The notes under the pieces are model-generated. The model did no database searches. It saw nothing but the letters and a program-made list of their open reading frames with translations, and was not told the DNA's origin. A DNA stretch of 64,000 bases. Source: Acidobacteria bacterium 13_1_20CM_3_53_8. Lineage in GTDB: Bacteria; Acidobacteriota; Blastocatellia; Pyrinomonadales; Pyrinomonadaceae. The position numbers and the translations under genes are program-made. Location of the stretch: NCBI GenBank assembly GCA_001920415.1, contig MNJR01000011.1:1-64000 (forward strand), in the 5' to 3' direction. Shown piece by piece: positions 12,311 to 22,660 of this stretch (within the stretch, counting starts at the first letter, position 1; each line of letters opens with the position of its first letter).

Positions 12311-12420
12311 ACCCTTTCGAGTTCTCGCTTTGCGTCTTTGCGTCTACAGCGTGAGAAATAGGTTCACGCTGTAGACGCAAAGACGCTAAGAGAAATACAG
12401 AAGCGCGCAAAGAATGTTTT
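12311..12420. repeat. CGCAAAG-type palindrome, family B, copy 1
   Basis: The left arm (GCGTCTTTGCGTCTACAGCG) and right arm (ACGCTGTAGACGCAAAGACG) pair over about 25 bp. It begins AACCCTTTCGAG, like the other family B ends. It contains no gene. It lies after the minus-strand YtxH-like gene and in front of the DedA-like gene. Confidence 0.85.
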
Positions 12421-15417: not shown

Positions 15418-15514
15418 ACTCTTTCGAGTTCTTCTTAGCGTCTTTGCGTCTTGGCGTGAAACCCTTTCTCACGCTGTAGACGCCAAGACGCTAAGAAAGA
15501 GCGCAAAGAATTGT
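15418..15514. repeat. CGCAAAG-type palindrome, family B, copy 2
   Basis: Arms CTTAGCGTCTTTGCGTCTTGGCG and CGCTGTAGACGCCAAGACGCTAAG pair imperfectly, because one arm carries the GTAGACGC variant. It lies between two minus-strand genes. Confidence 0.85.
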
Positions 15515-15517
15515 CTC

Positions 15518-16081
15518 TCATAAAGCTTCTTCGCATACGCCGCGCATGCTGCATCCGGTGCAACGCCGCGAGTCGTTATGGCTGCGATGAACAATTTCCA
15601 CAGCGCGAGCCTCGCGCATCTCTTCAAGCAGCGCTAGAAGTTCTTCGCGTAAATTTGCTGTGAACTCGACCTCTATCTCACGGTCATTGTAACGAATCAG
15701 CCCGTAAGGAACACGCGCGCCCGTAGTCTCTTCCACCAGCAGGCAGTAGGCCGCAAGCTGCATCAGGTTCGATGCGTACGGGCGACCGCTCGCGGGGCAG
15801 TTACCAGATTTCGCCTCGACCGGAACGATGCCTTCGCGCGTTCGCACAAGATAGTCCGGCCTTCCCACCAGCCCGTACCGTTTCGAGATAAGTGGTCGCT
15901 CCTGTCTGGTGCCATGCTCGTCAACGGAGAGCGGAGCGAGGTGTCCAATGGGAAAGCCCGTGTCGCCGTACAGTAGTTTCCCGCGCGGAAGCCCTGAGCG
16001 CTTCAAGGACGCGCGCGCTTTTGTGTAAGCGGCGAGCGCGCAGATGAGCAGGACGACGATTGCTGATAGAAGCCAGATCAT
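15518..16081 (-). CDS. Membrane-anchored Cas4-like PD-(D/E)XK nuclease, C-terminal half
   Basis: A 187-residue protein starting with a transmembrane helix (MIWLLSAIVVLLICALAAY), then a RecB/Cas4-type nuclease core: Asp76 in GRPDYLV, Glu89-x-Lys91 in VEAKSG and the QxxxY motif at Gln108-Tyr112. The C terminus has Cys174-x2-Cys177-x5-Cys183, the three distal ligands of the Cas4/AddB [4Fe-4S] cluster. The first cluster cysteine is missing here and is found in the upstream gene, which overlaps by 4 nt (ATGA). I chose the ATG at 16081 for that overlap; a longer frame to 16201 would run antiparallel to the neighbour's coding frame. It probably acts on DNA at the inner membrane. No CRISPR locus is near. 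Confidence 0.8.
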   Translation of the reverse strand: MIWLLSAIVVLLICALAAYTKARASLKRSGLPRGKLLYGDTGFPIGHLAPLSVDEHGTRQERPLISKRYGLVGRPDYLVRTREGIVPVEAKSGNCPASGRPYASNLMQLAAYCLLVEETTGARVPYGLIRYNDREIEVEFTANLREELLALLEEMREARAVEIVHRSHNDSRRCTGCSMRGVCEEAL

Positions 16082-16332
16082 ACGCGCCACCACACCAGCA
16101 GAAGAAACGTTGCGAGCATCAATGCGAGCAGAATAAAGAAGAGAGCCATCTGCCGCAAACGCCGCGCGCGAGCAACTTCGCGCCCGTGCGCCAGATGCCA
16201 ACGAGTGCCGCGCTCGCGCGCTTCGTGCCCTGCGGTAGGCTCAAAGCCTTCTGCGCGCAGCCACCACGCGCGAGAGCAGAAAACATACTCGCCGACTTCC
16301 GATGCCCTGATTAATTCTCGCTTCCTGCTCAC
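16078..16332 (-). CDS. Cas4-like nuclease N-terminal half with C-terminal membrane anchor
   Basis: An 84-residue protein with a GTG start whose GTGA overlaps the stop of the methyltransferase gene. It opens with the Cas4 N-terminal motif: EVGEYVFCSRAWWLR places Cys19 where Cas4 has its first iron-sulfur ligand, and RGTRWHLAHG supplies His46 like the Cas4 metal-binding His. It then ends in one hydrophobic helix (about 61-82, MALFFILLALMLATFLLLVW) and stops. The next gene begins with another hydrophobic helix and carries the rest of the nuclease. The two helices would form a hairpin that leaves both soluble parts in the cytoplasm. Function as one split enzyme is inferred. Confidence 0.75.
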   Translation of the reverse strand: MSRKRELIRASEVGEYVFCSRAWWLRAEGFEPTAGHEARERGTRWHLAHGREVARARRLRQMALFFILLALMLATFLLLVWWRV

Positions 16333-17363
16333 ACGCGCACGCCTTCAACAATAGACACGGGCGAACTCGTTTGTATGACTCTGGAGAGCTTAAATCCTGC
16401 GGCCTCGAAAAGCGAAGCGAACTCCTCGCGTGTGCGCTCGCGCCCGCCCGTCATCACGAGCATGTTTATGTCTATGAGCTTGCTCGGCGATGGTTCATCG
16501 TGTGGCGTCACAACCATTTCGACTACAGCTATCTTTCCGTTCTCCTTCATCGCGCGATGACAATTCCGCAGGATTGCAACACACTGTTCGTCGTCCCAGT
16601 CATGCAGTATCATCTTCATCGCGTACAGGTCGCCGCCTTCCGGCACAGCCTTGAAAAAATCGCCGCCCACAACCTCGCAGCGCGGCGTCAATCCTTCCGC
16701 GTCGAACCGTGCGCGCGCGCCATCTGCGACCTGCGGCGCATCGAAGAGAACGCCCTGTGCTCGCGTGTTCGCTTTCAAGATAGAAGCTAGAAAGCTTCCG
16801 TGCCCGCCGCCAACGTCAACGATCTTTTCAAAAGGCGAAAAATCGTAAGCCTCCATCACAGCCGCCTCTACGGCGAGCGTGAGGTCTGTCATGGCTTCGT
16901 TGAAGATTGCTCCGTTCTCAGGATGCTCCGCGTAGTATTGCCAGACGGGCATGCCGAAGATGTTATCGAAAGCCTTCTCTCCTGTCTTAACGCTGTGAAG
17001 AAGATTGCCCCATGCTACGAAATGGTCTTCGCCAAGCTCAGCGATGGCGAATGAACGCATCGCCCCGCTCTTCAAAGTCTCGCCAAGCGGAGTCAGAGCA
17101 AAACGCTTCTCGTCATCTTCATTTAATAGACCGACGCTTGCTAACGCGCGCAAGAGCCTGTATATGGAAGGCGCGTGCGCGCCCACACTGGTCGCAATCT
17201 CGTCAAAACTCTTCGCACCGTCCGAGAGTATATCTGCGATGCCGAGTTTGGCGGCGGCGTAGGTGATTCTTGAAACCCAGAAACCGAAGATCATTTGCAG
17301 CATCACATCTTGCGGCTGCTGATTCACATTCTTCTTTTCGGACATTTCCAACTTTTCGGACAT
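16329..17363 (-). CDS. Class I SAM-dependent O-methyltransferase (ASMT-like)
   Basis: A 344-residue protein with two parts. The N-terminal dimerisation winged helix (about 10-110) contains MIFGFWVSRITYAAAKLGIADIL and SVGAHAPSIYRLLRALASVG. The Rossmann methyltransferase has its SAM loop in KIVDVGGGHGSFLASIL and the downstream motif MKMILHDWDDEQC. This is the plant COMT/acetylserotonin O-methyltransferase type, common in bacterial natural-product genes. I chose the ATG at 17363 because GGGAG precedes it. The stop overlaps the GTG of the Cas4-like first half, so the three genes form one tightly coupled unit. The substrate is unknown, and a link to the nuclease is not obvious. Confidence 0.85.
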   Translation of the reverse strand: MSEKLEMSEKKNVNQQPQDVMLQMIFGFWVSRITYAAAKLGIADILSDGAKSFDEIATSVGAHAPSIYRLLRALASVGLLNEDDEKRFALTPLGETLKSGAMRSFAIAELGEDHFVAWGNLLHSVKTGEKAFDNIFGMPVWQYYAEHPENGAIFNEAMTDLTLAVEAAVMEAYDFSPFEKIVDVGGGHGSFLASILKANTRAQGVLFDAPQVADGARARFDAEGLTPRCEVVGGDFFKAVPEGGDLYAMKMILHDWDDEQCVAILRNCHRAMKENGKIAVVEMVVTPHDEPSPSKLIDINMLVMTGGRERTREEFASLFEAAGFKLSRVIQTSSPVSIVEGVRV

Positions 17364-17488
17364 TAAGATTAGCTCCCTTTGATTTAAGCTTTTCTGAACG
17401 AAACTTGATAGAAACATTCGGCGTAAAACTTTTGTCGAACCCTGTTAGAGCAGGACTGACAATCTAAACGTCTTCGCATCGCCCGCGC

Positions 17489-20279: not shown

Positions 20280-21911
20280 TTAGTGAGATTGCTTATAGAG
20301 CTTTTTCAACCGGGCTAGCGTGTCGGCTTCGCGTATGCTCTTGTCTGTGCGTTCGCGTTTGAAGCGTGGGATGCGCAAGACATATCCGGCTTCGTAGGCA
20401 CTGGTCTTTTGAATGTCTTGAAAATCAACTTCGATGACCATCTCCGGTTCAATCACTACGTTGCGCCCGCGCGCGGTGATGATCTTCGGCTCCAATTTTT
20501 TAGTCAGATCCCTCAGAATCTCTTCCGAAAATCCCGTGCCGACTTTGCCTACGGTTTTGAATTTCTCGTCATCACGAATCGCAACGACCAGACTTGATAA
20601 CAGCCCACGGCGTCGGCCTGAGCCGTAGATGCCACCGACCACCACCACGTCAAGAGTCTCGAACGCTGGCTTGATCTTCATCCAGTTGTCTGAGCGCTGT
20701 CCAGGCGTGTACGTGGCGTCGGGGTCTTTCGCCATCAAGCCTTCGTGACCTGCTTTGATAGCCTGCTTGAAAAACTTCTGCTGCTCCGCAATCTTGTCCG
20801 TGACGATTGATTCTGTCATCTTCACGCGCTCCGTCACGCGAAAAAGTTTTTCAAGCTCGCGCCGACGCTCTGCCTGCGCCACATTCATCAAATCACGCCC
20901 GTCGTGATAGACAAGCTCGAAGAGAAACAGCACTAGCGGAATCTCTCTGGTCTTCTCTTCGATTTCGTGGCGGCGTCCGAGCCGCATCAATACGGACTGA
21001 AAAGGCAGACGCTTCTTCAGCGTTGGATCAAACGCAACGGCTTCGCCTTCAATGATCGCATCGCCGCCTTTCCATGCTCTGCTTAATGCCTCGACCAAAT
21101 CCGGCATAGCTTGCGTGTCGTCGTTCAACCGGCGCGAGTAGAATTTCATCTCGGCTTCGCGTCCGCCTTTGATGTGAATCTGAAGCCGCGCGCCGTCGTA
21201 TTTTATTTCGAAAATAATTTGCTTGTCCTTGAGCCTTTCAAAAATCTCGCGGGGGTCATCAACCTTGTGCGCGTTCATGAATTGATAAGGCCGGAAGAGT
21301 CTCAGTCCGGTGCGCGCCAGAGCCTTTCGTCCTTTCTTCGCTCGTGCGGCTGCAAGCCCTATGTCGTTGGTCATAGCATAGAGATGCTCTACGGCGTCAA
21401 CATCAACATCGAAGGCGCGAGCCAGAGCTTTCATTAGCGTTCCGAAGCCTACATTTATTCGCATCTGCCCCAGAAGCATGCGCGTGAAATATTTCGCGCC
21501 GGGGGCGTTCGTGCTGGCGAAAACATATTCGATCAATTTCGAGCGATCCTCATCGCGCTTCACCGTTCGGTTAACACGCTCCCACAGATCGTCAACGGTC
21601 AATTGATCGCGCCCGCTCGCGAATTCCGCGACGACTTCGCTCATGTCCCCAGTCTGCTTCACACGCTCGTCAATCAACGATTCATCTTTGCCGGAAACTT
21701 TCGAGAGCGCCGCGCGAATCTTGCCCGGCCCGATTCCAAGTTTGTCAGTGAGCTGTGGGTCAACGACTTCGCCGACGGTGAAATGAGCCAGAGCCTCAAG
21801 CGTCTTCTCGTTAACCTGTCTGAAGAGGTCTGCCAGAATCTCTACACGCTTCGGCTCACGTGTTGACTGCTGCAATTGGTCGTAAACCTGTGCGAGCTTA
21901 GAAAGCTTCAT
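20280..21911 (-). CDS. ATP-dependent DNA ligase (archaeal/eukaryotic LigI-like, LigB type)
   Basis: About 543 residues. The N-terminal DNA-binding helical domain spans about 1-190 (KLSKLAQVYDQLQQSTREPKRVEILADLF...GPGKIRAAL). The nucleotidyltransferase core has the adenylated lysine near residue 237 (EIKYDGARLQIH), later IIEGEAVAFD and EGLMAKDPDATY, and the OB domain ends IPRFKRERTDKSIREADT. This complete three-domain form is typical of archaeal and some bacterial stand-alone ligases. An in-frame TTG at 21917 could also start it. It lies next to a uracil-DNA glycosylase and a LigD-type polymerase on the other strand, so it may seal breaks made in their pathways. Confidence 0.92.
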   Translation of the reverse strand: MKLSKLAQVYDQLQQSTREPKRVEILADLFRQVNEKTLEALAHFTVGEVVDPQLTDKLGIGPGKIRAALSKVSGKDESLIDERVKQTGDMSEVVAEFASGRDQLTVDDLWERVNRTVKRDEDRSKLIEYVFASTNAPGAKYFTRMLLGQMRINVGFGTLMKALARAFDVDVDAVEHLYAMTNDIGLAAARAKKGRKALARTGLRLFRPYQFMNAHKVDDPREIFERLKDKQIIFEIKYDGARLQIHIKGGREAEMKFYSRRLNDDTQAMPDLVEALSRAWKGGDAIIEGEAVAFDPTLKKRLPFQSVLMRLGRRHEIEEKTREIPLVLFLFELVYHDGRDLMNVAQAERRRELEKLFRVTERVKMTESIVTDKIAEQQKFFKQAIKAGHEGLMAKDPDATYTPGQRSDNWMKIKPAFETLDVVVVGGIYGSGRRRGLLSSLVVAIRDDEKFKTVGKVGTGFSEEILRDLTKKLEPKIITARGRNVVIEPEMVIEVDFQDIQKTSAYEAGYVLRIPRFKRERTDKSIREADTLARLKKLYKQSH

Positions 21912-21937
21912 CCTCAATCGCCGCCAGAAGTTTAATA

Positions 21938-22030
21938 ATCTTTGCGCTCTCCTTTGCGTCCTTGCGCCTTTGCGTAAGGAAATATTTCACGCTGGAGACG
22001 CCAAGGCGCTAAGAAGAGACGCAAAATCGT
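21938..22030. repeat. CGCAAAG-type palindrome, family B, copy 4
   Basis: Left words TTTGCGTCCTTGCGCCTTTGCG pair imperfectly with GAGACGCCAAGGCGCTAAGAAGAGACGCAAA. It lies in the divergent gap between the ligase and the glycosylase gene, so it may overlap their promoters. Confidence 0.8.
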
Positions 22031-22084
22031 TGGGCAGCTTACATGCAAATTGCAAGCCTCGTATGAAGAGATGGAGGGATTGTT

Positions 22085-22660
22085 ATGGCGAAGTCTAAAA
22101 AGGCGCAGGGGCTTGAAGAATTGGCGGCGCAGATTCGCGTGTGCACGCGCTGTCCCTTGCACGAATCGCGTACGTTGGCCGTTCCGGGCGACGGAAAATT
22201 CTCTGCGAAAGTTATGATTATAGGCGAAGCGCCCGGCAAGGAAGAGGATGAATCGGGGCATCCGTTCGTGGGGAGCGCAGGCCGTTTCCTCAACCATGTG
22301 CTAGAAGGAACAGGACTGGATCGAAACGATTTCTTCATCACCAATACCGTGAAATGCCGCCCGCCGAAGAACCGCACGCCGAAGAAGCTGGAGGTTGATA
22401 CCTGCACCTCGAACTACCTGTTCGAGCAGATTGCGCTACTGAATCCTAAGTTAATTATGCTGCTCGGCACGGTCGCAGCGAAAAAAGTCTTGGGCGTTAA
22501 GAGCATAAACGAGGCGCGCGGTCGCGTAATCCTTCACGAAGGGCGCAAATATCTGGTCGGCTATCACCCGGCTGTCAGATTTTACAGAGAAGATTTGGGC
22601 GAAAAGGTGAAAGAAGATTTCGCGCTGCTCAAACGCGAGGTCAAGAAAGTAAAAAGGTAA
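22085..22660 (+). CDS. udg: Type 4 (Fe-S) uracil-DNA glycosylase
   Basis: A 191-residue protein. The four [4Fe-4S] cysteines are in place: Cys20 and Cys23 (VCTRCPL), Cys91 (NTVKCRPP) and Cys107. The catalytic loop is GEAPGKEEDESGHPFVG and the second motif is GYHPAVRFYRE. The enzyme removes uracil from deaminated DNA. The last residues (KKVKR) are encoded inside the left arm of a palindrome, so the C terminus seems to have been reshaped by repeat insertion. Its neighbours are two other repair genes. Confidence 0.93.
   Translation: MAKSKKAQGLEELAAQIRVCTRCPLHESRTLAVPGDGKFSAKVMIIGEAPGKEEDESGHPFVGSAGRFLNHVLEGTGLDRNDFFITNTVKCRPPKNRTPKKLEVDTCTSNYLFEQIALLNPKLIMLLGTVAAKKVLGVKSINEARGRVILHEGRKYLVGYHPAVRFYREDLGEKVKEDFALLKREVKKVKR

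Follow-up and report, generated by a model that had tools for sequence, protein, structure and literature searches.

Archaea commonly carry solo-Cas4 nucleases, whose distribution in bacteria is patchy, and we know of no established job for them. The locus described here raises the question of whether such an enzyme can be built from two membrane-anchored chains instead of one. It lies in a stretch of 64,000 nucleotides, referred to throughout as the window, in which the first-pass annotation had read two small overlapping genes as the halves of a split, membrane-anchored Cas4. Splitting at one place, together with membrane anchoring, would fix where in the cell the enzyme works and makes its function directly testable. 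If true, this would be an unusual case in which two membrane-anchored chains have a single Fe-S cluster and a single nuclease active site in common. In the open-licence literature we found no published split or membrane-anchored Cas4, and the words "transmembrane" and "split" are absent from the main text of Hudaiberdiev et al. 2017 (PMC5704561).

Architecture of the gene pair

The N-terminal half, ORF A (window 16078..16332, minus strand), begins with GTG and encodes 84 amino acids, comprising the Cas4 N-terminal block with Cys19 and His46 followed by a C-terminal membrane helix. The C-terminal half, ORF B (15518..16081, minus strand; 187 amino acids), opens with an N-terminal membrane helix and continues into a PD-(D/E)XK core, a QxxxY motif and three C-terminal cysteines. 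The stop codon of A and the start codon of B overlap as ATGA (16078..16081, minus strand), which makes translational coupling probable; a 4-base overlap is found in most loci. The coordinates, strands and overlap given by the first-pass annotation proved exact. So did the features that it had assigned to each gene, namely, Cys19, His46 and a terminal membrane helix (hydrophobic segment, residues 62-80) in A, and an N-terminal helix, Asp76, Glu89, Lys91, QxxxY and Cys174/177/183 in B.

Upstream of A lies an O-methyltransferase gene whose stop codon shares the bases GTGA with the GTG start of A, so that A and B may end a three-gene transcript in the window. The adjacency of the O-methyltransferase gene (window 16329-17417) to A is not conserved in other loci. 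Just after ORF B sits one copy of a 28-base dispersed repeat, TCACGCTGTAGACGCAAAGACGCTAAGA, whose intergenic copies (window 12364-12391, 15469-15496, and 21987-22014) are 89-100% alike.

Membership in the Cas4 family

Profile comparison assigns the two ORFs to adjacent parts of a single family model. Against TIGR00372 (cas4; model length 180, curated cut-off 65 bits), A aligns over model positions 2-49 with 15.2 bits, an E-value of 0.014 in a comparison with 18,950 models, and B over positions 55-179 with 76.9 bits. When joined without their membrane helices, the two reach 98 bits over positions 2-179 of 180, the addition of A lifting the score of B by 21 bits. Because the two matches cover adjacent parts of the model and the joined sequence scores higher, A supplies what B lacks, and the agreement with complementary halves of one Cas4, as the first-pass annotation had it, is far beyond chance. 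Taken alone, A gives weak family matches, and for some homologues none. Automatic annotation would call B a CRISPR Cas4, as it passes the TIGR00372 cut-off, which would be misleading, and A could be missed.

Cas4 nucleases are defined by four cysteines, one near the N-terminus and three near the C-terminus, by His, Asp, and Glu residues that bind metal, and by a QhxxY motif (PMC12538437, PMC5704561). Conservation of the corresponding residues was scored over 16 readable pairs. On A, Cys19 (codon 16276..16278, minus strand), the first predicted Fe-S ligand, and His46 (codon 16195..16197, minus strand), predicted to bind the active-site metal, do not vary across the 16 pairs. On B, the same holds for Asp76 in the RPDYL motif (15854..15856, minus strand), for the Glu and Lys of the Glu89-Ala-Lys91 ExK motif (15809..15817, minus strand), and for the Gln and Tyr of the Gln108-Tyr112 QxxxY motif (15746..15760, minus strand). 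The last three predicted Fe-S ligands, Cys174-x2-Cys177-x5-Cys183 (15533..15562, minus strand), are all kept in 14 of the 16, the exceptions being L031, in which B is truncated, and L047, in which the degenerate end of B has suffered partial loss.

The predicted active site is thus divided in all 16 loci, with His on A and Asp, Glu, Lys, and QxxxY on B. The four cysteines are divided one to three, and the earlier observation that neither half holds a full set while the pair holds all four extends from the window to 14 of the 16 loci, the window included. The residues that are invariant in the pair are those that define the Cas4 family in the published comparisons (PMC12538437, PMC5704561). One further residue of B, Asp40 (window 15962-15964), part of a G-x3-Y-x-D motif that directly follows the membrane helix, is also invariant in 16 of 16 and lies outside the known set of Cas4 catalytic residues.

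By the whole-length model match above the cut-off, the active-site residues, the four cysteines, and the fold described below, the pair belongs to the Cas4 family. It departs from the single-polypeptide form that is usual for Cas4, though not part of the TIGR00372 definition, in that all 17 loci have two ORFs. The split membrane form is therefore a variant of the family in terms of sequence and fold.

Membrane topology and predicted fold

The membrane helix of A spans residues 62-80 (16093..16149, minus strand; mean Kyte-Doolittle 2.95; model helix 36-83), and that of B residues 1-20 (16022..16081, minus strand; mean Kyte-Doolittle 2.61 over residues 1-19; model helix 90-121). Across 15 loci, each half has such a hydrophobic helix, with maximal 19-residue hydropathy of 2.0-3.3 and positive-inside flanks, as expected of integral membrane proteins. 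Summed over these loci, the ratio of K/R to D/E is 69:14 in the 15 residues preceding the A helix versus 10:1 at its outer end, and 53:9 in the 15 residues after the B helix versus 0:2 at its outer end. By the positive-inside rule, this charge bias predicts an N-in orientation for A and a C-in orientation for B, which would place both catalytic halves in the cytoplasm, in agreement with the placement of the soluble halves originally suggested from the window.

Structure prediction made use of L065, a locus in which A and B lie in the same frame with one TAA between them; the modelled chain was L065 A and B joined, with the TAA read as Gln, and hence one chain, not two. AlphaFold2 (42 aligned rows) returned a mean pLDDT of 91.9 and a pTM of 0.88 for a Cas4 fold on a two-helix stalk. 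Helices 36-83 and 90-121 of this model run from the nuclease body through the hydrophobic segments and read as a hairpin, with His46 near the base of the first. The best PDB match was 8d3l_I (type I-C Cas4; 298 columns, TM-score by target 0.64), followed in order by 7mi4 (Cas4/Cas1), 4r5q (Pcal_0546), Dna2, MGME1, and ACE1. A control without single-chain Cas4 rows kept the fold and the same top PDB matches at a pLDDT of 82.0 and a pTM of 0.76, the cysteine-rich end being predicted with low confidence; the folding runs rested on 28 to 42 aligned rows. The confident Cas4 fold of the joined chain supports, only indirectly, the closeness of Cys19 to Cys174/177/183 that the first-pass annotation had made a condition.

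Recurrence, co-occurrence, and selection

Starting from relatives of B within Acidobacteriota, to which the search was limited, we gathered 17 loci from two classes with A directly before B and a hydrophobic helix in each half. Thirteen belong to the window's own class (the window, L002, L003, L005, L006, L029, L062, and L064-L069) and four to a second class (L031, L047, L079, and L080). L029, from a one-sequence contig scan, and L063 have identical pair proteins and were counted once, and L007, a B fragment at a contig edge, stands outside the count. At the junction, A and B either overlap, by 4 bases in most loci and by 1, 10, or 13 in others, or lie 3, 4, or 18 bases apart, and B has its own start codon close to the junction in every intact locus.

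The first-pass annotation had named A and B homologues that never co-occur as a refuting outcome, and the opposite was observed. Among 60 relatives, A was found in six genomes, all with a complete B, and in a phylum sample of 396 genomes A and a long B were found in the same three (G000, G049, and G386). A was thus found only together with B, save for one weak match, in G027, that has an internal stop. The natural single-chain fusions that the first-pass annotation had proposed looking for did not turn up in more than 800 Acidobacteriota genomes searched. In a tree with long branches, drawn from rows with many gaps, the 15 split rows fall on one side of a branch and 39 Cas4s on the other, but the support for that branch is only 74. 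Values of dN/dS range from 0.10 to 0.44 for both halves, with a single A comparison at 0.78, and indicate that both are mostly under purifying selection. Judged by these comparisons, the split is ancestral, not an error.

The pair has also degenerated in places. In L080, an internal stop interrupts A and a frameshift disrupts B, so both halves have decayed together, and in L031 B is cut after about residue 138. These two loci and the loss of cysteines in L047, all in the second class, argue that the system is dispensable.

Genomic context

The genes neighbouring the pair are of housekeeping types and differ between lineages, and in the loci examined none is conserved beyond close relatives; the neighbourhood holds no hint of defence or of substrate. 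An ATP-dependent DNA ligase and a uracil-DNA glycosylase family protein are encoded 4-6 kb from the pair (window 20280-22660); these are DNA-repair genes, but they are not conserved neighbours of it. ComEC, present in 56 of 60 relatives, does not discriminate.

Cas1 was not detected in 10 of the 16 pair genomes checked, two nearly complete second-class assemblies, G386 and G484, being among these 10, and no cas gene adjoins any pair examined. In the window's own genome, a CRISPR array with 35 repeats of GTCTTAATCGAACCAGAGTGGAATTGAAAC was found on a contig other than that of the pair (G000:C12:9135-13600, L061), beside cas1 and an ordinary single-chain Cas4 that is separate from the split pair. 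The initial statement that a CRISPR array and other cas genes are absent holds for the surroundings of the pair and does not extend to the genome as a whole. The position next to cas1 or cas2 that characterizes a gene of CRISPR adaptation is not that of the pair. Viral contigs searched with the B alignment contained no relative, nor did phage records at the sequence level. Given its varied housekeeping neighbours, the frequent absence of Cas1, and the lack of viral or phage relatives, the pair is a solo-Cas4 in genomic terms, lying outside characterized CRISPR or mobile contexts.

Comparison with known systems

Solo-Cas4 proteins (TIGR00372 / PF01930 / PF12705; PMC5704561) resemble the pair in their catalytic residues, their four cysteines, their location away from cas genes, and their frequent presence in genomes without Cas1. 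They consist of one chain, whereas the pair consists of two, each bearing a membrane helix where the chain is interrupted. The CRISPR Cas4 proteins (8d3l, type I-C; 7mi4, a Cas4/Cas1 fusion; 4r5q, Pcal_0546) are the best fold matches of the joined model, yet they are soluble, single-chain, and part of an adaptation complex, in contrast to the two membrane-anchored chains of the pair. Dna2 and MGME1 share the related PD-(D/E)XK fold in other architectures that are not membrane hairpins.

Two further proteins share with the pair a Cas4 fold outside CRISPR. The first is the Argonaute-associated Cas4-family protein ACE1 (9iab, 9iac); when an Argonaute link was sought for the pair, Piwi was found in 1 of the 17 pair genomes. 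The second, a Cas4-like nuclease of S. elongatus, is reported to lower the transfer or maintenance of RSF1010, which by analogy offers a precedent for action on incoming plasmids or DNA (PMC10653904). Unlike the pair, neither ACE1 nor the S. elongatus nuclease is reported to be split in the sources consulted.

Proposed mechanism and alternatives

We consider the pair to be a two-subunit, membrane-anchored solo-Cas4 nuclease that shares an Fe-S cluster and a metal site between its chains, with a probability of about 0.78. The conserved pairing, the complementary halves, the conserved residues, and the topology signals are directly legible in the sequences; from them we infer the complex, the cluster, the nuclease activity, and a membrane-proximal DNA substrate. 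The retention of the pair over long evolution, in unrelated chromosomal places and often without CRISPR, suggests a nuclease at the inner face of the membrane. The first-pass reading of a split Cas4 in the membrane accordingly stands in part, as regards the conserved pair, its complementary halves, and its predicted cytoplasmic orientation, and the neighbourhood lends no defence-related hint to the action on incoming DNA that it suggested.

In the proposed mechanism, A (N-in, with its C-terminal helix) and B (with a short N-out end and its N-terminal helix) would pair within the inner membrane, their helices forming a hairpin stalk that brings the cytoplasmic halves together. Cys19 of A and Cys174/177/183 of B would then surround one Fe-S cluster, and the metal site would consist of His46 from A together with Asp76, Glu89, and Lys91 from B, either chain alone being expected to be inactive. 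The resulting nuclease would be held against the cytoplasmic side of the inner membrane. It would most likely cleave or resect DNA ends or single-stranded DNA at that place, where it would meet entering strands, DNA ends, or membrane-linked replicons. That the metal site and cluster form only on pairing of the two anchored chains, leaving the enzyme inactive elsewhere and confined to DNA entering or at the membrane, is a more tentative proposal, to which we give rather less than even odds. A role in limiting incoming DNA, suggested by analogy, is likewise possible but somewhat doubtful; the pair may instead repair or process chromosomal or replicon DNA that lies close to the membrane, which is about as likely.

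Could the two ORFs encode one chain after all? Programmed frameshifting or stop read-through would join the halves into a single two-pass membrane Cas4, the two ORFs being a recoding signal, and both the well-folded joined chain and the single in-frame TAA of L065 speak for it. However, the junctions vary in spacing and frame, so that a single kind of slip or read-through cannot account for every locus, and the start codon that B has near the junction in all intact loci mostly lies in an ATGA-type overlap, an arrangement typical of coupled translation. The common split, the differing junctions, and the dN/dS values of both halves together make obligatory frameshifting unlikely, and we regard recoding in general as improbable. 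The same three observations exclude sequencing error. Pseudogenes of the pair do exist, as the decayed L080 and the truncated L031 attest, but there is a negligible chance that faulty assembly, or a normal Cas4 recently turned into a pseudogene by a frameshift, explains what is seen: 17 loci from two classes divided in the same way, each with two hydrophobic helices, with varied junctions and with purifying selection on both halves.

The remaining alternatives concern what the chains do. B might be a membrane nuclease by itself, since it passes the TIGR00372 cut-off and the family matches of A are weak, in which case A would be a regulator or a remnant partner without catalytic or cluster residues. 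This too is unlikely: A has two invariant residues, Cys19 and His46, it covers precisely the stretch of Cas4 missing from B, with the corresponding gain in score, and it was not found without B. As a member of the Cas4 family that occurs in some genomes with CRISPR, the window's included, the pair might also be a hidden component of the CRISPR adaptation machinery that trims prespacers at the membrane. Against this very improbable reading stand the many pair genomes in which Cas1 was not detected, G386 and G484 among them, the lack of an adjoining cas gene, and the separate Cas4 of the window genome's own CRISPR locus. The two-subunit membrane nuclease is thus the reading that we prefer.

Distant relatives

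Plasmids gave only three matches to B, all distant and all from Bacillus subtilis. Chloroflexota may hold similar proteins with a transmembrane segment and a Cas4 domain, which offers a lead. One of the B. subtilis plasmid matches (L052, CP120602.1) is annotated as a Dna2/Cas4 domain-containing gene and has genes annotated as helicase, Hfq, and thermonuclease in its vicinity.
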